Shown: one piece after another, positions 34,839 through 44,178 of the stretch
How positions within the stretch are numbered: the stretch's first letter is position 1
Layout: the number at the start of each line of letters is the position of its first letter
Notes under the pieces: model-generated
What the model was told of the DNA's origin: nothing
Database searches by the model: none
Seen by the model: the letters and a program-made list of their open reading frames with translations, nothing else
NCBI GenBank assembly: GCA_019454875.1
Contig: JACFNL010000003.1
Location: 1-64,000 of the forward strand
Direction: 5' to 3'
DNA from: Candidatus Cloacimonadota bacterium
Lineage (GTDB): Bacteria > Muiribacteriota > UBA6191
DNA: 64,000 nucleotides
Translations under genes and position numbers: made by a program

Positions 34839-35129
34839 TCAGGATCGAATATCCACCTGAAGATTAAGCCCCGAAAAATCGATACCTGACTTTGTTTTTG
34901 CCGATGGTTTTATAGAAACAAAGTCATCAGGTGAAAGAAAAATTTTGAGCTTGTGGGGTTCATAAAAAATTTGTGATATCGATACTTCGCAGTTGGTGAC
35001 AATCTCAACCTCAAAAGAATAGAGATTGACTATCTGAAATGATTGCTTCAGAACTTGGTATTGCTCTAGCTGTTGATAGTCTTGTTGGGAAAGCCTTAGT
35101 CTAACTTTATCCTCTAGTCTAATGTTCAT
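34839..35129 (-). CDS. Small unknown protein at the end of the molybdoenzyme operon
   Basis: The 96-residue protein begins MNIRLEDKVRLRLSQQDYQ and is beta-rich. The pattern resembles the small DUF7009-type proteins seen in molybdoenzyme clusters, from memory only. It overlaps mobA by 11 nt and is the last gene of the operon, so it probably serves cofactor insertion or maturation. It has no signal peptide and should be cytoplasmic. Confidence 0.65.
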   Translation of the reverse strand: MNIRLEDKVRLRLSQQDYQQLEQYQVLKQSFQIVNLYSFEVEIVTNCEVSISQIFYEPHKLKIFLSPDDFVSIKPSAKTKSGIDFSGLNLQVDIRS

Positions 35130-35679
35130 GGTTTAAGAATTCCTTCCAATCCTGGGGAGTATTTAAGTTACTAAAATTATGGGAATGCAAAGCCTGGATC
35201 TCATGTATTAAAAGCATTGAATAAAGACTTTTAAAGGAATAAGGCATGTTGAGGCATTTCAAATTTGTCAGCTTGTGCAAAAGATTGCAATCACATTTTA
35301 ATAATACGGGTAATTCAAAACCAAGGTATTTAACTCCTGATGCTTTGGCAGGCAGTTTTAGAAGTGGGGTGAGAATATCGCGATCCAGTAAAGGCATATC
35401 CACAGGAAGAACCAGAAGCTTTTGTGGCCCATAATTTTCTAGAACATAAGTAGCAACGCAACGAATCCCTTCCAGTGGACCTTGCCCTAAGACCTGATCG
35501 GGAATTGAAATGTAGTCCTTTTGGTTCCCACTAACCAAAACGGAATCAATCTGAGGTAGAGAAGCCAAGGTTTCATACTGTTTTTGTAAAAGACTTTTAG
35601 ATTGATATAACAATTCAGACTTGCATTGACCCATGCGCTTGGAAAGGCCACCAGCAAGAATCAATCCAATAGTTTTCAC
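35119..35679 (-). CDS. mobA: Molybdenum cofactor guanylyltransferase
   Basis: The 186-residue protein has the MobA signature GLILAGGLSKRMGQCKSEL, LLVLPVDMPLLD with the metal-binding Asp, and GPLEGIR. It transfers GMP from GTP to Mo-molybdopterin to form the guanine dinucleotide cofactor used by the DMSO reductase family, in agreement with the enzyme encoded upstream. It overlaps moeA by an ATGA. Confidence 0.92.
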   Translation of the reverse strand: MKTIGLILAGGLSKRMGQCKSELLYQSKSLLQKQYETLASLPQIDSVLVSGNQKDYISIPDQVLGQGPLEGIRCVATYVLENYGPQKLLVLPVDMPLLDRDILTPLLKLPAKASGVKYLGFELPVLLKCDCNLLHKLTNLKCLNMPYSFKSLYSMLLIHEIQALHSHNFSNLNTPQDWKEFLNHEH

Positions 35680-36917
35680 AAACGGAAAACCTCGACCTTC
35701 TGTCCCTTGGGAACAAATTCTTCATTCCCGGAAAATACAGCCCAGGCATTGGTTTTTAGAAACTGGCTTAAGGATGCTGCGGAACGCCTCTTGGGAGCAG
35801 AGACTTTCCAAACCCCATCGGATTGACTCAATTCGGCACAAAAAAAACTGCGAAAACCCAAAGAGACTTTAACATCATGTAACAGTTCCGCATAAACAGG
35901 TTCTGGGGACTTGCAATAGGTCAATTGATTCAGGAATGGAATGAGAAAAAAACGAAGCCCTACGGCAGAAGCCGCCAGATTTCCAGGTATCCCAAAAATA
36001 AATCGTTCGCGCCCACGGTAGTTTAAGGACGCAAACAATATTGGTTTTCCAGGATGAATGGAGCATTTGTGAAAGTGAATCTGTGCCCCTAACCCCAGAA
36101 GCGTCTCTTTAACAAAGTCATATTTCCCCATACTGACAGCACCGGTGCTGATCAAAAGATCCTGACCTGAATCAAATGCATTTAATAGAAGATTACGATA
36201 GAGGGTCGGATCATCCCTAACAATTCCAAGATTTTTAACATCATGTCCCTGTCCTCGAAGATAGGCTTCCAGATAAATTCCAGTTGCATTGCGAATCTGA
36301 GTTTCATTCAGATTTTTTGTTGCGTAACTTACGAGTTCTTTTCCGGTAGAAACAATGGCTAATTGAACCTTTCTGAGTACCTCAACCTGATCAATACCCA
36401 TGTTTGCCAGGACCATTAAATGATGAAACTCGATCTTGGTTCCCCGTGGTAGTAAAAGCTGACCTAATTTGATATCTTCACCCTGACGGCGGATATTTTC
36501 TCCGTCATTTGGGATAGAGTTAAGACAAATCCGTTTTGCATCAGCATTTTGTTCTATCGTGGTTGTGTTTTCTAAACGAATCACGGCCCAAAAAGCATCA
36601 CTGGGAATTTTTGCACCTGTCATGATTTCAATGGCCTGCAATTCCTCCTTGATTTCTGGTATTTCTTCCCCTGCGACCAATGATTCAGAGATGGTCAGAA
36701 TCGGATTCTTCCCATCCCTGAATTGTGTTAATAAGCTCCGATGAATCAAATATCCATCCATGGCAGAATGATCAAACCGTGGGTGATCTTCTGTTGCATG
36801 GATATCAGTAGCCAAAACACGATTGGCGGCATATTCAAGACCCACCGTTTCAGTATCCAGAGATACTGAAGTGAGGCATTCTGAAATGATGTTCAGACAA
36901 TCCTCATATTTGTGCAC
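35676..36917 (-). CDS. moeA: Molybdopterin molybdenumtransferase
   Basis: The 413-residue protein has MoeA features: AANRVLATDIHATEDHPRFDHSAMDGYLIH, ETGAKIP-type sequence (EIMTGAKIPSDAFWAVIRLE), GENIRRQGEDIKLGQLLLPRGT, STGKELV, and SMGKYDFVKE with IHPGKPILFA and GIPGNLAAS. It inserts molybdate into adenylylated molybdopterin. It overlaps the chaperone gene by 14 nt and mobA by 4 nt. A dedicated moeA and mobA make the cluster partly self-sufficient; the moa genes are not in the window. Confidence 0.93.
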   Translation of the reverse strand: MHKYEDCLNIISECLTSVSLDTETVGLEYAANRVLATDIHATEDHPRFDHSAMDGYLIHRSLLTQFRDGKNPILTISESLVAGEEIPEIKEELQAIEIMTGAKIPSDAFWAVIRLENTTTIEQNADAKRICLNSIPNDGENIRRQGEDIKLGQLLLPRGTKIEFHHLMVLANMGIDQVEVLRKVQLAIVSTGKELVSYATKNLNETQIRNATGIYLEAYLRGQGHDVKNLGIVRDDPTLYRNLLLNAFDSGQDLLISTGAVSMGKYDFVKETLLGLGAQIHFHKCSIHPGKPILFASLNYRGRERFIFGIPGNLAASAVGLRFFLIPFLNQLTYCKSPEPVYAELLHDVKVSLGFRSFFCAELSQSDGVWKVSAPKRRSAASLSQFLKTNAWAVFSGNEEFVPKGQKVEVFRL

Positions 36918-37575
36918 AGGATACCTCTTCTTCGGCTTGGGATACGCTGAACCATCCCTGGAGTTCAGGATTGATATTTAGCCGCTTACATTCTTGTAAA
37001 ACAAGCTGTTCTATCCACTGAAATACGCAACTGTAATATTGTGATTCCATGACTCTAGGGCGTAACAAAATGGAGGAAACAAATCGACCCAGATGGTCTC
37101 GCATAAATTTGAGCATTCCATCGGAAACAATTGCTACTCCCTCTAAATCCTTCTCGTTTTGTAGATAGATAAGCTTCATCATCATCAAACTGTAAAATTC
37201 AAGTTCTACAGAAACATGATCGATCATCTCTGTTCCATCTACAAAATCAAAGCCAAAAGCTTTATAGAAACCGGCAATATCAGAAAGTTCATTAGTTTTA
37301 AACATAGATCTTTCACGCCCATATTCAGTCTCATAAAGAGGGTTTAAGCTTTTAGAAAGATCAAAAATAGATAGATACTCAGAACTCAGTTCCTCAACAT
37401 TAAAGTCTTTGTTCCCAATCAACTGTTCTAATTTGTTTTGCAGCGGCTGCAAAATCTCAAAATCTTTGTCTTTTAATAACTCACTGACACAAACTAGATA
37501 GTTCTGATCAGGATATCCTGAAAGTACAGAAGCTAAAACAAAAGGGCCTGGATTGATTGTACTAATACTGTCCAT
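36904..37575 (-). CDS. TorD/NarJ-like chaperone of the molybdoenzyme
   Basis: The 223-residue all-helical protein has the TorD-family look: LSEYLSIFDLSKSLNPLYETEYGR, FKTNELSDIAGFYKAFGFDF, DHVSVELEFYSLMMMKLIYL and a conserved helix DHLGRFV. Such chaperones hold the catalytic subunit until the cofactor is inserted and guard its Tat signal. It lies one nucleotide after the gamma subunit gene, the position of the delta subunit in ebd, ser and clr operons. Confidence 0.85.
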   Translation of the reverse strand: MDSISTINPGPFVLASVLSGYPDQNYLVCVSELLKDKDFEILQPLQNKLEQLIGNKDFNVEELSSEYLSIFDLSKSLNPLYETEYGRERSMFKTNELSDIAGFYKAFGFDFVDGTEMIDHVSVELEFYSLMMMKLIYLQNEKDLEGVAIVSDGMLKFMRDHLGRFVSSILLRPRVMESQYYSCVFQWIEQLVLQECKRLNINPELQGWFSVSQAEEEVSCAQI

Positions 37576-37576
37576 C

Positions 37577-38431
37577 TTAACGCTCCATCAGTAATAATGG
37601 TGTCCAAGCCATGGTTAGCGACTTCATGCCCCCCACTTCCTCATTTTCTCCCTGCCACACAGCAAAAGCTACATGACTTTTTCCACCTTCCTGTAAGGAG
37701 GAACCGTCCTGATACTTCAGAGGGCGTAAGATATAGACCTTCCACTCATTATTCTCCCAAACTCCAAAAGCTGAAGCCTGTGGATTAGGACGAGTCACCG
37801 TAGTAGAAAATCCCTCGGCCATCAACTCATCAATCCCTTGCGGTTTATAGTATGACTTAGGATTTCCGGCCGCAGTGCCACCAAGAAAAGCATCCTTTTG
37901 TTCTTGAGTCGCCTTGGGAATATTGCCAGTGAATTTGTAGTCCTGAGGATACATATCCACAGTCATATTAGGATATATCTGTTGAATTTCGCGTTTTGAA
38001 CCCTGCTTTACATCCATTTGATACTGATATCTCCAGTGAAAAATATGCACAGGATTACCTTGATGCCCCATAATTACCGCTGGAGGTTGTAAATTATCAT
38101 TGATCGGAAATTGCACGGCCACGGCATCAGAGTAGCTTTTGAGCTTATCTGAATCGTTGATCTGAGGGTCAGACCAGCGCAGACGCAATGCCAGATTTTT
38201 GCCATCATGCAAGGCAGTAACAAAAACATTGGCAACAGAGGTTTGTTTGGGTTTAGGTGTCACCATAGGCTGGGCCATTAGGGAAACACTAAACTCCTTA
38301 TCAGCATTTTGCCAAACCGCAACACTTTGGTAATCTTGGGATAAATTGGTTGTAACCTTCTTTACATTAATTTGGGCAAAGGAAACAGTGCTTAAAAAGA
38401 TTGTGCTTAAATAAAATCGTATTGGGCTCAT
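37577..38431 (-). CDS. Gamma subunit, periplasmic haem-b protein of the EbdC/SerC/DdhC type
   Basis: From the ATG at 38431 (SD GAGGTGG) the protein has 284 residues and a signal peptide (MSPIRFYLSTIFLSTVSFAQ). The mature part matches the ethylbenzene-dehydrogenase-related haem domain: VFVTALHDGKNLALRLRWSD, DAVAVQFPIND, VHIFHWRYQYQ, and a C-terminal WKVYILRPL. In known relatives a single haem b with Met and Lys ligands passes electrons between the Fe-S subunit and a periplasmic cytochrome. This confirms a soluble alpha-beta-gamma enzyme. No cytochrome c gene accompanies it. Confidence 0.85.
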   Translation of the reverse strand: MSPIRFYLSTIFLSTVSFAQINVKKVTTNLSQDYQSVAVWQNADKEFSVSLMAQPMVTPKPKQTSVANVFVTALHDGKNLALRLRWSDPQINDSDKLKSYSDAVAVQFPINDNLQPPAVIMGHQGNPVHIFHWRYQYQMDVKQGSKREIQQIYPNMTVDMYPQDYKFTGNIPKATQEQKDAFLGGTAAGNPKSYYKPQGIDELMAEGFSTTVTRPNPQASAFGVWENNEWKVYILRPLKYQDGSSLQEGGKSHVAFAVWQGENEEVGGMKSLTMAWTPLLLMER

Positions 38432-38438
38432 ATCCACC

Positions 38439-39569
38439 TCAAGGAGTATTGTTTCTGACCGCACCAAATTTTTCATCAAATGCTGTCCGGGTAATCATTT
38501 TTTCCACCAATGGAACACTCACTAGCTCGTCCCCACTCTCATCGTAGCCAAAGGCAAAATCGTCTTTGACTTCAAAACGCCGAATGATTCGATCGGTACT
38601 GCCCATTAACATCAAAAGCCCTTGTGCGACCTTATCGTCTTTGAGTATACGGTAAGCATCAATGGCCTGATTCACATTCGGACCAAACATTTGCTGCAAA
38701 TATTCCTGGTTGGCGTGAACTGGTGGAATATAATAGATATTGGGTTCGAGTCCTAGCTGTGGGTAGTATGGAAGAGCAAGACCGGCCTTATGTACAAGAT
38801 AATCTACAGGATTGTCTGCTTTTGCGTTCCATGGGGGATTAATAAAACCCATAATTCGGATCTTCCCAATGCAATTAACTACACATTGAGGTTGTAGTCC
38901 CTGTTCTACGGCTGGATAACAACCAATACACTTCTCACTTACCCTAGTATGTGGATTGTACATGGATTTTTTATACGGACATGCTTTGACACATTCCCCA
39001 TAACCACGACAACGGGACTGATCAATTAACACGACCCCATCTTCCTGCCGCTTATAGATAGCTTTTCGCGGACAGGCAGCCAGACAGGCTGGATAAGTAC
39101 AATGAGCGCAGGTTCGGGGAAGATAAAAAAACCATTTGTCGTGTTTTAAAGATAGATAATCACCACCATTTACCTGATTGGCACAATCATCTTCACCATG
39201 ATTTGGATACATCCAGTCTTGATCTTCAGGGCTAAAATGTGCGGCTTTTTCATGTGCTTCGGCCGCCTCATAAATTGTTTTGCCGTAGTAGGGCTTTTTT
39301 GCTTCCCAGGCCTGGTGTCCTAATCTCTCAAGTACCCTGACATCCCAAGCTAATGGATAGGAACCATAAGGTTTGGTCTCAACATTGTTCCAGAGCATGT
39401 ATTCCTGACCCTTGCCACTGGTCCAGGTAGTTTTACATGCCAGGGTACAAGTCTGACAGGCAATACATTTATTTAAGTCAAAAACGATTGCCCATTGTTT
39501 TTTTGGTCTATTTTCTGCGTAGGGATATTCCATTTCCCTATCAATTTGCCAGTTTTTTACTTTCGCCAT
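38439..39569 (-). CDS. Beta subunit, four-cluster iron-sulfur protein
   Basis: The 376-residue protein has four cluster-binding groups as in NarH/EbdB/SerB: CIACQTCTLACKT, CAHCTYPACLAACPRKAI, CRGYGECVKACPYKK and KCIGCYPAVEQG...CVVNC. In the third group a Tyr stands where the second Cys would be, as Trp does in NarH, predicting a [3Fe-4S] cluster. It has no signal peptide and would be exported with alpha by the Tat system. SD GAGAGGAA precedes the start. Confidence 0.94.
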   Translation of the reverse strand: MAKVKNWQIDREMEYPYAENRPKKQWAIVFDLNKCIACQTCTLACKTTWTSGKGQEYMLWNNVETKPYGSYPLAWDVRVLERLGHQAWEAKKPYYGKTIYEAAEAHEKAAHFSPEDQDWMYPNHGEDDCANQVNGGDYLSLKHDKWFFYLPRTCAHCTYPACLAACPRKAIYKRQEDGVVLIDQSRCRGYGECVKACPYKKSMYNPHTRVSEKCIGCYPAVEQGLQPQCVVNCIGKIRIMGFINPPWNAKADNPVDYLVHKAGLALPYYPQLGLEPNIYYIPPVHANQEYLQQMFGPNVNQAIDAYRILKDDKVAQGLLMLMGSTDRIIRRFEVKDDFAFGYDESGDELVSVPLVEKMITRTAFDEKFGAVRNNTP

Positions 39570-39600
39570 GATTCTATTCCTCTCAGTTTTTGTGCAGTTA

Positions 39601-42600
39601 CTATTCCTTGCCTGGTTTTAAGAAACCACCAGCCAGATAAGCTTTCATGGCTTTGTTTTCATAAGTTGGTCGATAACCAAGCTCGGCCGGGCGAAATTTG
39701 CCTTTGCCACCAATACCCCCAGCTTCTGCCTTGCTCATTTTGACAAAAGCTTCACGAGGTGCTCCATTTGTACAATGGATATCTGGTTCAAACCCCTTAT
39801 CCATTCCCTGTCCAAACATGGTTTTGTGAACCAGAGTTTCTGTTTGTAGGGTTGGTCGAAGCCATGCTCTGGTCGCACTTTGATGGGAGCCGTAGCGATA
39901 TAGGGACTGATAGTTGGTTTCCGGTGACTTAGCCAATCCATCTTCTCTTGTTTCATGTCCCTTAACGCTACCAAATGTGGCACCATACATATTGTGCCAA
40001 GTACGGGCAATCCCCTTGGGTGTGCCCGGATAATAACGGGCTCTGAGCATAAGTCGAGAGACCTTATACTCCTCAGTTCCTTCTGTCCAGTTACGAAACG
40101 GTCGATCTTCAGGATCGGCATCAATATAAATGTAGTCTCCGTCCTCTACGCCCATTGCTTTGGCATCATCTGGATTGATATCTACATAGCCCTCTGTCAC
40201 AAAAGGCTGTCGGCTATCTCTTCTGTAAACATCCCCAAAGGGACCAAAAAACATCGCATTAAAATCTGTGTCAATTGGTGTGGAGTGTGCCCCATGCCTA
40301 TATTTGGGAGTATGGTACACATGAGAAAACTTAAGCTTTAACTTCAAGGGATGTTTACTGTTTAAAACCTCATCAGTGGACATGATGACATTTCTGACCT
40401 GTCTAGTTTCACAAGATAAGTCGCTTGTGGAAAAGCCCCAATCTTCAGGTTTTAATGGGCGAATGGCATCATGTGGGGCAGCTACAATGACATTGGGCTC
40501 ATAATGTGTAGAATCCACCGGTTCCCGGTAAACCACAAGATTTTCCCCATGTTCAATAAATTCCTTCTCGAATCGGTAAAACTCAAGTCTACCTGACTTG
40601 GTATGCCAAGGTTCTTCGCCTAATGCTTGTTCATAAGATGAAATCCTGGGATAGGTTCTCATATTCATCAGGGCTGGGATTCCTTCCTTGGCCTTGGCCC
40701 GTAAATCATTAAACTGATATCCCTTTAACGAGGCAGAAGCATCAATGATTCTTTGGATATACTCCTCTGTTTTGCCAGCAAAAACAAAATGAAAAACATC
40801 CTTTAATCGTGGTTCTTCAATTTTTTCGGCAATCGCTTTGGCAACCCCGGCTAAAATTTCAATATCTGCTTTAGTGTCAAAGATTCTTGGTAATGGAGTT
40901 TCTGGATACACCTGAACAAAAGGATTGGTACAGGAACCGGTAATGTCAGGAACCTTTACTTCTGCCCAGCTATCTGCCGCATATACAATATCAGCATATT
41001 CACAGGAACCCGTCCACCACCAGTCGGCATAGGCAATAAACTCGACTTTAGGCAGAGTATTCATCACCACATCATAGTGCCATTTGGTATTCCCAATTGT
41101 GGAGTTCGAGTTACTGTTCCACATAAATTTGGTTGGGCTAGGCATGTGTTCTTTGGGGGTAAACATTTTTTTACCCACTTTTAAGGGACGATCTCCATAG
41201 TTAAAAAAATGCAGGGACTCATACTGTAAAAACTTACGAGTCTTGGGTTTTTGCCCTTCTTCAAGACTGAGATTAAATGGGTCTTCCATAGCATAAACGG
41301 GTTCCCCACCAATAATGGCAGATCGATAATTTCCTGCATAACTACCAACATTACCACCAGGGAAACCAACATTTCGGGTAAGGGCAGCCACCAGAAAAAT
41401 GGCCCGGTCTTTTAAATCAGCATTAAAAAACTGGTTTGGTCCCATACCTACGGCAAAAAGAGTTTTTTCCTTATTCTGCGAAATCATTTGTGCCAGTTTA
41501 TAAATTCCAGGAACTGGGCAGCCTGTGATCTGACTGGTTTTTTCGGGTGTAAAATTTTGATCCAGATATTCTTTGGTCAGATCAAAAACGGTTCTTACTC
41601 TAACTTCCTGACCATCTAACAACCTAACAGTAGTTTGGGCGTTTAAATCAGGAGTGATACCAAGCTTCTCAAAACCTGGGCCAAAATCATCTCTGGTGAC
41701 TACAGATATTTTTTTGTCTTCATCCATAACCAGATAAGGGGCAAAATGATCTTTCATGGTATCGGGAGCAAATTGTTGGGTCTGGGATAGGTTGTTAACC
41801 TTTTCCTTTTTATTTTTGAAGCTAATAGACTTAAGTTCTTTGGCTACAAAACCATCAATCACCTCATGAGGTCTTAAGGGTTGTAGCGTATCCATGCGGA
41901 TTAGAAACGGTAGGTCGGTGTTTTTTTGCACCCATTCCCGATCATACCAGTTGCGTTGTATTAAGACCTGAGCCAGGCCTAATGCAAAAGCAGGATCCGT
42001 GCCGGGGCGAATAATTGCCACTTCATCACATTTGGAGGCCGTTGCACTGTACTCCACCGTGACGGCTGCAATTTTTGCCCCCCGAATTCTAGCCTCTGTC
42101 ATCCAGTGGGAATCTGGCATTTTTGTAGTGATCCAATTCATGCCCCAGGAGATAATCAGATTGGCGTATTCAGTACAGCTTAAATCGAAATCATTGGTTT
42201 GAGCACCGGTTACCATGGGATGTCCTGGTGGGAGGTCGGTGTGCCAACTATAGGAGTCCCATCCACGAGCTCCTTTAGCTTCGTCCGAAGAAACTCCCCT
42301 AATTTTGGCATCCATTAAAGCAAGGCTGTTGGCCATGCGGTACATTCCAAACAAACGGGTTGCTCCAAGAAAGGCCATCCCACCGCGTAATTTGAAGGTC
42401 TGTAGGCCCGACCCGCCCATAGAATCGATCATTTCTGGCTCATAGCCTTGGAGGCGAAGGTATTCTGCTCCCTTTTCTCCACTGTAAGTTTTGGCAATGT
42501 TTTCGGCAGCCAGGGCAGTATATTTAAAGATCTCATCCCAACTGGCTCTTAACCATTTGTCACGGCCTCGTTGAAAATATTTGGGATCTGGTTTTCCTGT

Positions 42601-43074
42601 ATCTTTGTCTCTAGGAAATCCTGCATCAATCCACTCCTTATAGCCTCGGCGTATCATTGGGGCTTTTAAGCGACGATCACCATATACCCGCCGCCCCAAA
42701 GCCAGACCCTTCTGGCAAATTCTGGGATCCCAGCGATGTGATGCACGGTTACCATAAAGATCCTGTGCCTTGCCATAACCAAAGGAGGGGCCAATTCTAA
42801 GAACTACCCCATTTTTCATATAGGTCTTTAAGAGACAGTTGTGGGTATCATTAGGGGCACATAAAAAGTGGAAGTGGCTGTCTGGCTTGAAAATATTTCG
42901 ATAGACACTTTCCCATTCTCTATCTGGATATTGAGCTAGTGGGTTATCAATAGTCATTGGCTTAAAATACTTTAAAGGAGCACTCATGACTTTGGAACCA
43001 ATACCTAAAGCCGTAGTTACTGCTGCTCCTTTAATAAAGGATCTTCTATTGATCTCAAACTTTTTATCCGCCAT
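39601..43074 (-). CDS. Catalytic alpha subunit, type II DMSO-reductase family molybdoenzyme, substrate unknown
   Basis: The 1157-residue protein has a Tat signal (RRSFIKGAAVTTALGIGSK, residues 10-28). Near the N-terminus, C72, C80 and C120 with H67/H69 are candidates for the FS0 cluster (FLCAPNDTHNC, DPRICQKG). WHTDLPPGHP at about 278-287 corresponds to the NarG/EbdA loop region that supplies an Asp ligand to Mo. Further bis-MGD segments include IISWGMNWITTKMPDSHW, RNVGFPGGNVGSYAGNYR and the C-terminal ARTWHNMYGATFG. With EbdC-type gamma and TorD-type delta it belongs with periplasmic ethylbenzene dehydrogenase and the chlorate, selenate and DMS enzymes, but the FS0 spacing differs from NarG. 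I cannot name the substrate. SD GGGGGA precedes the start. Confidence 0.92.
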   Translation of the reverse strand: MADKKFEINRRSFIKGAAVTTALGIGSKVMSAPLKYFKPMTIDNPLAQYPDREWESVYRNIFKPDSHFHFLCAPNDTHNCLLKTYMKNGVVLRIGPSFGYGKAQDLYGNRASHRWDPRICQKGLALGRRVYGDRRLKAPMIRRGYKEWIDAGFPRDKDTGKPDPKYFQRGRDKWLRASWDEIFKYTALAAENIAKTYSGEKGAEYLRLQGYEPEMIDSMGGSGLQTFKLRGGMAFLGATRLFGMYRMANSLALMDAKIRGVSSDEAKGARGWDSYSWHTDLPPGHPMVTGAQTNDFDLSCTEYANLIISWGMNWITTKMPDSHWMTEARIRGAKIAAVTVEYSATASKCDEVAIIRPGTDPAFALGLAQVLIQRNWYDREWVQKNTDLPFLIRMDTLQPLRPHEVIDGFVAKELKSISFKNKKEKVNNLSQTQQFAPDTMKDHFAPYLVMDEDKKISVVTRDDFGPGFEKLGITPDLNAQTTVRLLDGQEVRVRTVFDLTKEYLDQNFTPEKTSQITGCPVPGIYKLAQMISQNKEKTLFAVGMGPNQFFNADLKDRAIFLVAALTRNVGFPGGNVGSYAGNYRSAIIGGEPVYAMEDPFNLSLEEGQKPKTRKFLQYESLHFFNYGDRPLKVGKKMFTPKEHMPSPTKFMWNSNSNSTIGNTKWHYDVVMNTLPKVEFIAYADWWWTGSCEYADIVYAADSWAEVKVPDITGSCTNPFVQVYPETPLPRIFDTKADIEILAGVAKAIAEKIEEPRLKDVFHFVFAGKTEEYIQRIIDASASLKGYQFNDLRAKAKEGIPALMNMRTYPRISSYEQALGEEPWHTKSGRLEFYRFEKEFIEHGENLVVYREPVDSTHYEPNVIVAAPHDAIRPLKPEDWGFSTSDLSCETRQVRNVIMSTDEVLNSKHPLKLKLKFSHVYHTPKYRHGAHSTPIDTDFNAMFFGPFGDVYRRDSRQPFVTEGYVDINPDDAKAMGVEDGDYIYIDADPEDRPFRNWTEGTEEYKVSRLMLRARYYPGTPKGIARTWHNMYGATFGSVKGHETREDGLAKSPETNYQSLYRYGSHQSATRAWLRPTLQTETLVHKTMFGQGMDKGFEPDIHCTNGAPREAFVKMSKAEAGGIGGKGKFRPAELGYRPTYENKAMKAYLAGGFLKPGKE

Positions 43075-43084
43075 AAATCCCCCT

Positions 43085-43384
43085 TTAGGATATGTGATAA
43101 GCCGTTGCTGTGATTGAGGACAGGACTACATCCTTAGGCCAGGTTTCTTTCAGATGTAAATAAATCTGACCATCATCCCCTATGGAAAGTCTTAAATAAT
43201 GACCTTCATTAATATCTTTGACGCGAATCCCCTCGGGCAGAGATTCAATAAAAATCGAACTACTGGAACCTATTGTCAGGTTTTGGGCCATCCCTACTGG
43301 AAAATTCTGGAAGGAACCTAGTTTGTATTTTGCAGGTGAGCCGCTCAAGGCCCTAAAAAACTGCCTGCGACTCATTTGGCTCAT
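43085..43384 (-). CDS. Small unknown protein with a Tat-like RRxFF motif but no hydrophobic stretch
   Basis: The 99-residue protein starts MSQMSRRQFFRALSGSPAKY, which copies the twin-arginine consensus, but the next 20 residues are not hydrophobic enough for a signal. The rest is beta-rich (SSSIFIESLPEGIRV, YLRLSIGDDGQIYLHL). It lies 10 nt before the catalytic subunit gene and overlaps the upstream gene by an ATGA. It may be an accessory subunit or a maturation factor. No family is recognised. Confidence 0.65.
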   Translation of the reverse strand: MSQMSRRQFFRALSGSPAKYKLGSFQNFPVGMAQNLTIGSSSSIFIESLPEGIRVKDINEGHYLRLSIGDDGQIYLHLKETWPKDVVLSSITATAYHIS

Positions 43385-44178
43385 GCTCTCTCCCCGTAAA
43401 CAGATATGGGACTGGCATCCCTTAAAGTTAAATGAGGAAACTTCTGTTTGATTTTTTGAATCAAAAGATTACGAAAAAAACTAACGGAAGCCGAACATCC
43501 AACAGCTTCTTTGGGTTCCATTTTATAGACAAGCGCGTTTTCCAAAAGCCCTAAAAAACTCAGTTTCATCTTTTGTCTGTCAAATTCATGAACCAACAAA
43601 TCAAGTTCCACCTGCATATTTTCACTAGCAGGGGCATAGCGGTCTGGATTTCTCCACATAGCATCCGTAGGAATTGGTTCTTCGTTAAAAAAAACATCTT
43701 TGCAGGTTGTGTCCCCACTCATGACGGAGTGATGACGCGCATAACCTACCTCATCGCTTAAACCAAGAACCAGGCCATCGATGGATTCCCTAAAATATTG
43801 ACAGGCCCTACTACCAAAATCCTGACCTGTTTTACAACCTGTACGCAAAAGTGCCACGGCCTTAGGCTTTACAATCCAGTTTCCTGCAAAACATGGAATT
43901 GCAAAGGATGAGAGATGATTTTGAAAATCTTCTTTTTCCCAGGAGAGCCCTATGTGTTTTTGGTAACCTCGGCCCAATTGTGAGGAATTCAAAAACAATT
44001 GATTCAGTAATTGTTCAAATTGCTCCACTTCAAGTTCATTTAGACTGGCAATCACTTCTGATTCTGAAGACATTTTGACATGGATGACCTGGTTGTATGC
44101 AGAAACACGAGCTCTCAACCAACGAGATTTTAAGTCCTCAATTGTACTATCTACCATTGTGTTTTCTTGCGCTTCCAT
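43381..44178 (-). CDS. First gene of the molybdoenzyme operon, Cys-containing cytoplasmic protein of unknown function
   Basis: The 265-residue protein has helical ends and a central segment with RTGCKTGQDFGSRAC and HHSVMSGDTTCKDVFF. The GD-x2-C spacing is reminiscent of ATC-hydrolase/4-vinyl-reductase-like folds, but this is only a resemblance. No signal peptide or DNA-binding motif is evident. Being first in the operon it could be a sensor, a substrate-processing enzyme or a maturation factor. The start could also be 44157. Confidence 0.6.
   Translation of the reverse strand: MEAQENTMVDSTIEDLKSRWLRARVSAYNQVIHVKMSSESEVIASLNELEVEQFEQLLNQLFLNSSQLGRGYQKHIGLSWEKEDFQNHLSSFAIPCFAGNWIVKPKAVALLRTGCKTGQDFGSRACQYFRESIDGLVLGLSDEVGYARHHSVMSGDTTCKDVFFNEEPIPTDAMWRNPDRYAPASENMQVELDLLVHEFDRQKMKLSFLGLLENALVYKMEPKEAVGCSASVSFFRNLLIQKIKQKFPHLTLRDASPISVYGERA

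Follow-up and report, generated by a model that had tools for sequence, protein, structure and literature searches.

Among solved structures, the best match to the enzyme studied here is the nitrite oxidoreductase (NXR) of Kuenenia stuttgartiensis, which shows FS0 cluster ligands C67, D71, C75 and C115, the molybdenum ligand D275 and the substrate-coordinating residue N70 (PMC8387239). NXRs are reversible, and the Beggiatoa 4572_84 enzyme is described as a nitrate reductase (PMC8387239). Kitzinger et al. described a clade that is sister to the Nitrospira/anammox lineage and holds the NXR of Nitrotoga, the nitrate reductase of Hydrogenobacter thermophilus and mostly uncharacterised proteins, and the question of whether members of this clade run in both directions is raised in the same work (PMC6050957). 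The window analysed here is a stretch of 64,000 nucleotides from a contig of a Candidatus Cloacimonadota bacterium, and it encodes an enzyme that is ordinary in kind, a member of the NXR family with a complete operon. We consider it probable that this NXR/NAR-family operon was acquired horizontally and that in its host it functions as a nitrate reductase feeding NirK and cNOR to N2O.

Operon organization

The genes of the operon are encoded on the same strand in the order 265-aa gene, small ORF, alpha, beta, gamma, delta, moeA, mobA and DUF7009-like ORF (Table 1). The family matches of alpha, beta, gamma, delta, moeA and mobA are far above chance, with the exception of the Tat-type signal of alpha (R10-R11), which scores 17.1 bits against TIGR01409 and lies narrowly above the cut-off of 16.7. 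These matches bear out the subunit set proposed from the sequence alone, a Tat-exported alpha, a four-cluster beta, an EbdC-type gamma and a TorD-type delta, the Tat score being marginal. The flanking genes examined encode an AdoHcyase, an M20 peptidase, a protein kinase and a helicase, all belonging to processes unrelated to the operon. FNR-like palindromes occur in the window at no more than chance level, and promoter and terminator scans were uninformative. The small ORF that begins with SRRQFFRA has counterparts only in the nearest relatives (L002, L003, L004, L007 and L011).

Table 1. Features of the molybdoenzyme operon and its parts, in operon order
Feature	Position	Strand	Remarks
265-aa protein, predicted V4R/TRAPP/H-NOX-like fold	43381..44178	minus	No Pfam family; upstream of alpha in subclade
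~99-aa ORF, N-terminus SRRQFFRA, between 265-aa gene and alpha	43085..43384	minus	No family
alpha (catalytic, NxrA/pNar type)	39601..43074	minus	ATG start, 1157 aa, no internal stop
FS0 motif codons C72-C80 (CAPNDTHNC)	42835..42861	minus	Position from ORF; ligands by alignment to 7b04_B and PMC8387239
beta, 376 aa, four-cluster	38439..39569	minus	15 invariant Cys
gamma (EB_dh, haem b)	37577..38431	minus	Likely start is Met17 of ORF 37577..38479 (start inferred from sequence)
delta, Nitrate_red_del; TorD/NarJ-type chaperone	36904..37575	minus	Family match
moeA, molybdenum insertion	35676..36917	minus	Family match
mobA-like, guanine dinucleotide attachment	35119..35679	minus	Family match
DUF7009-like small ORF, operon end	34839..35129	minus	Weak match, under cut-off

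Family identity and phylogeny

The best match of the alpha subunit among solved structures is subunit A of Kuenenia NXR (901 bits, full length), followed by PcrA (161 bits), EbdA (132 bits) and NarG (about 119-125 bits). The best matches of beta and gamma are also to Kuenenia NXR, with 377 and 85 bits respectively. Alpha is 41% identical to Kuenenia NxrA, 24-27% to PcrA, EbdA and ClrA, and 25% to NarG. All features of the type II DMSO-reductase family are present, namely a Mo-bisMGD alpha with FS0 and an Asp molybdenum ligand, a four-cluster beta, a haem b gamma and a TorD-type chaperone. The enzyme is set apart from NarGHI by its low identity to NarG, by an Asp in place of the His ligand of FS0 and by an EB_dh gamma replacing NarI.

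In a single scan of genome contigs, 248 relatives were confirmed and 80 of them, mostly from MAGs, were kept. The clade is thus large, and the kept relatives belong to many phyla and groups: Bdellovibrionota, Myxococcota, Acidobacteriota, Rokubacteria, Bacteroidota, Planctomycetota, Nitrospirota, Thiotrichaceae and others. In maximum-likelihood trees the clade of the window alpha is sister to the NxrA of Nitrospira and Kuenenia and does not lie inside that branch, and the two together are split with full support from NarG, EbdA, ClrA, PcrA and a Haloferax enzyme. A 30-row mixture-model tree gave support of 100/100 for the outgroup split, 100/100 for NxrA and 97/99 for the window clade. The EbdA row in the trees is partial, the EbdA, PcrA and Kuenenia NxrA rows were transcribed from printed alignments, and the Nitrospira NxrA rows, taken from Nitrospirota genomes, owe that name to their motif, their multiple copies and an identity of 57-58% with Kuenenia NxrA.

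The window clade contains the Beggiatoa 4572_84 enzyme (L045). We infer that it is the same as, or part of, the NXR/NAR clade of PMC6050957, whose Nitrotoga and Hydrogenobacter references are absent from the tree, as are SerA and DdhA. A search of 300 genomes belonging to the same order as a betaproteobacterial relative gave, among the extracted matches, no Nitrotoga-type QM motif. A haloarchaeal relative of approximately 46% identity is encoded on plasmid 2 of Natronococcus occultus (L119:8001-11494); its alpha is unannotated, and the match is in two pieces and possibly frameshifted.

The structure search and the trees agree with the sequence-only reading that this is a type II enzyme of the periplasmic type, distinct from NarG. 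That reading had further suggested a separate clade with an undescribed substrate. Alpha does fall outside NarG, EbdA, ClrA and PcrA, all four of which had been proposed for comparison, but it pairs with NxrA, which had been left off that list.

FS0 motif and active site

The FS0 region of alpha had been described as FLCAPNDTHNC with C-x7-C spacing and a distant C120, and these residues are confirmed in the alpha ORF as C72-x7-C80 and C120. D76, which that description had not singled out, lies within the motif at the fourth ligand position (C-x3-D-x3-C...C). The molybdenum ligand is D280 in Y275-x4-D280-x11-Q, and the substrate Asn is N75. When aligned with the Kuenenia enzyme, C72/D76/C80/C120, N75 and D280 correspond to C67/D71/C75/C115, N70 and D275. 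Position 76 is Asp in 101 of the 104 clade rows and Cys in the other 3. Every row has C120, and 103 have N75, as is the case for C72 and C80.

Because the ligand residues are conserved among the clade rows and match those of Kuenenia NXR, the 3Cys/1Asp FS0 is, as judged from the aligned residues, the normal motif of the NXR/NAR family. The earlier view of the motif as unusual therefore has to be abandoned: the same ligand set is present in the solved Kuenenia NXR (PMC8387239) and in nearly all relatives from the wider NXR/NAR clade, so that alpha falls inside a described clade with the same FS0 motif, which is no sign of a new substrate. The proposal of an unusual motif with an undescribed substrate fails because NXR was missing from the comparison. 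Its removal takes away a false lead, and it serves as a warning that a comparison of type II enzymes without NXR makes a normal 3Cys/1Asp FS0 seem exotic. Three Nitrospirota relatives (L102, L103 and L104) read CTPNCTHNC, in which Cys replaces the FS0 Asp to give a natural 4Cys variant. An AlphaFold model of alpha built from 12 rows had a mean pLDDT of 49 and was discarded.

Beta and gamma subunits and export

All 15 Cys residues of beta are invariant in 70 homologues, and its clusters would comprise three [4Fe-4S] and one [3Fe-4S], as in Kuenenia NXR-B. The gamma subunit has no CxxCH motif. Its haem ligands, in ORF numbering, are M137, shared by all 51 homologues, and K286, found in each of the 49 homologues covering it; these correspond to the haem ligands Met155 and Lys305 of Kuenenia NXR. 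A start at Met17 gives gamma a Sec-type signal, read from the sequence alone. The predicted Tat signal on alpha and Sec signal on gamma are as expected for the periplasmic NXR/NAR clade.

Host genome and function

The host genome is 3.83 Mb in size, 94.9% complete and has 1.3% contamination. It contains one copy of alpha with no second match, and the same alpha query found NarG-sized frames in many other genomes. Genes for NirK, NorQ and NorR share one host contig with those for a di-haem cytochrome c, a NorB-like protein of 450 aa and a VWA protein that occupies the norD position. NirK scores 362 bits against a cut-off of 296 and has a C-terminal cytochrome c domain (L159:8140-9534), and NorR scores 494 bits against 476. 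The name norB was given by size and neighbors, as the ORF matches only the general COX1 family. The host also encodes alternative complex III, the genes of which are followed by a caa3 oxidase. Cytochrome cd1 (nirS), NosZ and RuBisCO were searched for in the host genome with no match. NirK exceeds the cut-off in 6 of 11 other genomes checked (L002, L003, L004, L007, L009 and L021).

Because nirK, the nor cluster and the alternative complex III-caa3 genes are present and RuBisCO, nirS and nosZ were not matched, nitrate reduction within partial denitrification is the likeliest function. On the simplest reading the host would be a partial denitrifier that takes nitrate as far as nitrous oxide, and this enzyme would catalyse the first step.

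The same enzyme could instead be mainly oxidative, which we regard as unlikely; it would then convert nitrite to nitrate for detoxification or energy gain, and the electrons would go to cytochrome c and the caa3 oxidase. The match of the active site and FS0 to Kuenenia NXR, the aerobic caa3 oxidase of the host and the presence of a wider-clade member in the nitrite oxidiser Nitrotoga (PMC6050957) are all consistent with this direction. It is opposed by the nirK and nor cluster with NorQ and NorR, by the lack of a match to RuBisCO, the one CO2-fixation route covered, by the single gene copy as compared with at least two in Nitrotoga and several Nitrospira genomes, and by the nearest relatives, most of which carry nirK. 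Since nirK is also found in nitrite-oxidising Nitrospira (PMC11327836), nirK alone leaves the direction unfixed. Automatic naming of these genes as nxrA would assign nitrite oxidation to apparent denitrifiers.

A different substrate, whether chlorate, perchlorate, selenate, DMS or ethylbenzene, is very unlikely, although an EB_dh gamma and a TorD-type delta are common to those enzymes and chlorate reduction is a frequent side activity of nitrate reductases. The low identity of alpha to PcrA, EbdA and ClrA and its fully supported position outside their group argue against it, and the operon in the window does not contain a chlorite dismutase, unlike the clr locus of Ideonella. The substrate Asn of NXR is also present, where EbdA has Ile (PMC8387239). 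Chlorate and hydrocarbon substrates were rejected by this phylogeny and these residues.

For nitrate reduction, we infer the following localisation, electron path, direction and substrate. Mo-bisMGD would be inserted into alpha with the help of delta, MoeA and MobA, after which the folded alpha-beta pair would leave through Tat. Gamma would leave through Sec and contribute a high-potential Met/Lys haem b. Electrons could then pass from quinol through alternative complex III and cytochrome c to the gamma haem b, the beta clusters, the 3Cys/1Asp FS0 and finally the molybdenum site, where NO3- would be reduced to NO2-. The nitrite would be passed to NirK, and the resulting NO would be converted by cNOR to N2O.

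The operon in the window has no redox-partner gene. Many relatives carry genes adjoining alpha upstream for a multihaem cytochrome c, a ~516-aa cytochrome b-like protein and a Rieske-like protein, names guessed from sequence, which suggest a dedicated quinol-oxidising partner (L028, L030, L031, L036, L043, L048, L057, L060, L067, L068, L073, L074 and others). The only Rieske protein found in the host was rejected as evidence of a bc1 complex: its gene adjoins resistance-kinase, transposase and thioredoxin-like genes, and no cytochrome b could be recognised there. A haem-copper oxidase-like frame (G000 contig C78:5000-6285) has several internal stops and is possibly a pseudogene or an assembly error.

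Probable transfer between phyla

The nearest relatives of the window operon belong to Bdellovibrionota, with identities of 76-77% for alpha and 83-84% for beta. Alpha is nested among them with support of 100/100 in the 30-row tree, and beta is likewise nested. The RpoB of the host is 44-50% identical to that of those Bdellovibrionota genomes, 96% to that of a genus mate and 73% to that of a family mate; these are tblastn identities, used in place of an RpoB tree in which three rows (G032, G018 and G477) were in wrong reading frames. A Bdellovibrionota host, as the alpha neighbors might indicate, is ruled out by RpoB. Because the operon (34839-44178) nests in Bdellovibrionota despite an RpoB identity of just 44-50%, it appears to have crossed between phyla. 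Its GC3 of 0.33-0.42 is lower than the 0.42-0.49 of neighboring genes. The tetranucleotide usage of the flanks correlates at 0.62-0.76 with other host contigs (those of nirK and alternative complex III and one more). Against four loci from Bdellovibrionota or neighboring lineages the correlation is -0.04 to 0.25.

Horizontal acquisition fits these data better than misbinning. That the operon comes from a Bdellovibrionota contaminant, with nirK and nor belonging to a different organism, is highly improbable: the nesting of alpha and beta but not of host RpoB among Bdellovibrionota, and the absence of the gene from the sampled genus mate (only 75% complete), would fit such an error, but the usage of both flanks is host-like and not Bdellovibrionota-like, bin contamination is 1.3%, and native flanks lie on both sides of the operon on one contig.

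Upstream four-cysteine protein

The first gene of the operon encodes a 265-aa protein for which a Pfam search found no family. Its predicted structure has a pLDDT of 92, and Foldseek matched the model, distantly (best E 1.7e-4, TM 0.3-0.5), to TRAPP/Bet3 and H-NOX folds, a fold group that we read as a possible link to V4R. Residues C96, C115, C126 and C159 are invariant in 20 homologues. The homologues are located directly upstream of alpha in a subclade of Bdellovibrionota, Myxococcota and Sericytochromatia, and linkage to alpha occurs only there. A profile HMM of the protein was contaminated by a fused frame (L027) and drew alpha frames, so only rows of ~170-310 aa adjoining alpha were used. 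Binding of a metal cluster, sensing of NO or nitrite, and maturation are guesses at its role, and the protein is a specific new target. More broadly, we offer as a tentative and rather doubtful proposal that an NXR-family nitrate/nitrite module takes its own maturation genes along as it moves between phyla, accompanied in one subclade by this new four-Cys V4R/TRAPP/H-NOX-like accessory protein, perhaps cluster-binding, NO/nitrite-sensing or maturing, and that some of its hosts may be unrecognised nitrite oxidisers.

Comparison with known systems

Kuenenia NXR (PDB 7b04, NxrABC) shares with the window enzyme the three subunits, the 3Cys/1Asp FS0, the substrate Asn, the molybdenum Asp, the beta Cys residues, the Met/Lys ligands of the gamma haem and periplasmic-type export. 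The window enzyme differs in that its alpha is only 41% identical and lies outside the NxrA branch, and its locus, which has no adjoining NXR-T or extra haem c genes, groups delta, moeA and mobA with the subunit genes in one operon. The NxrA-like proteins of Beggiatoa, Thioploca and Thiomargarita (L045, L032 and L046), termed nitrate reductase in PMC8387239, belong to the same clade, with 55% identity and the same FS0 and molybdenum motifs, but they fall in another subclade and no four-Cys V4R-like upstream gene was found at their loci. The periplasmic NXR/NAR clade to which Nitrotoga and Hydrogenobacter thermophilus belong is alike by published description, with a Tat alpha, a Sec gamma, a chaperone and a position sister to the Nitrospira/anammox NXR (PMC6050957). 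The molybdenum motif of Nitrotoga, compared by description and not by direct alignment, is Y-4x-D-11x-QM, whereas the window alpha has QT. EbdA and the perchlorate and chlorate reductases share the type II family, an EbdC-type gamma and a TorD-type delta with the window enzyme; they differ in alpha (24-27% identical), in their position outside the window clade and, for EbdA, in an FS0 with 3Cys/1His (PMC8387239).
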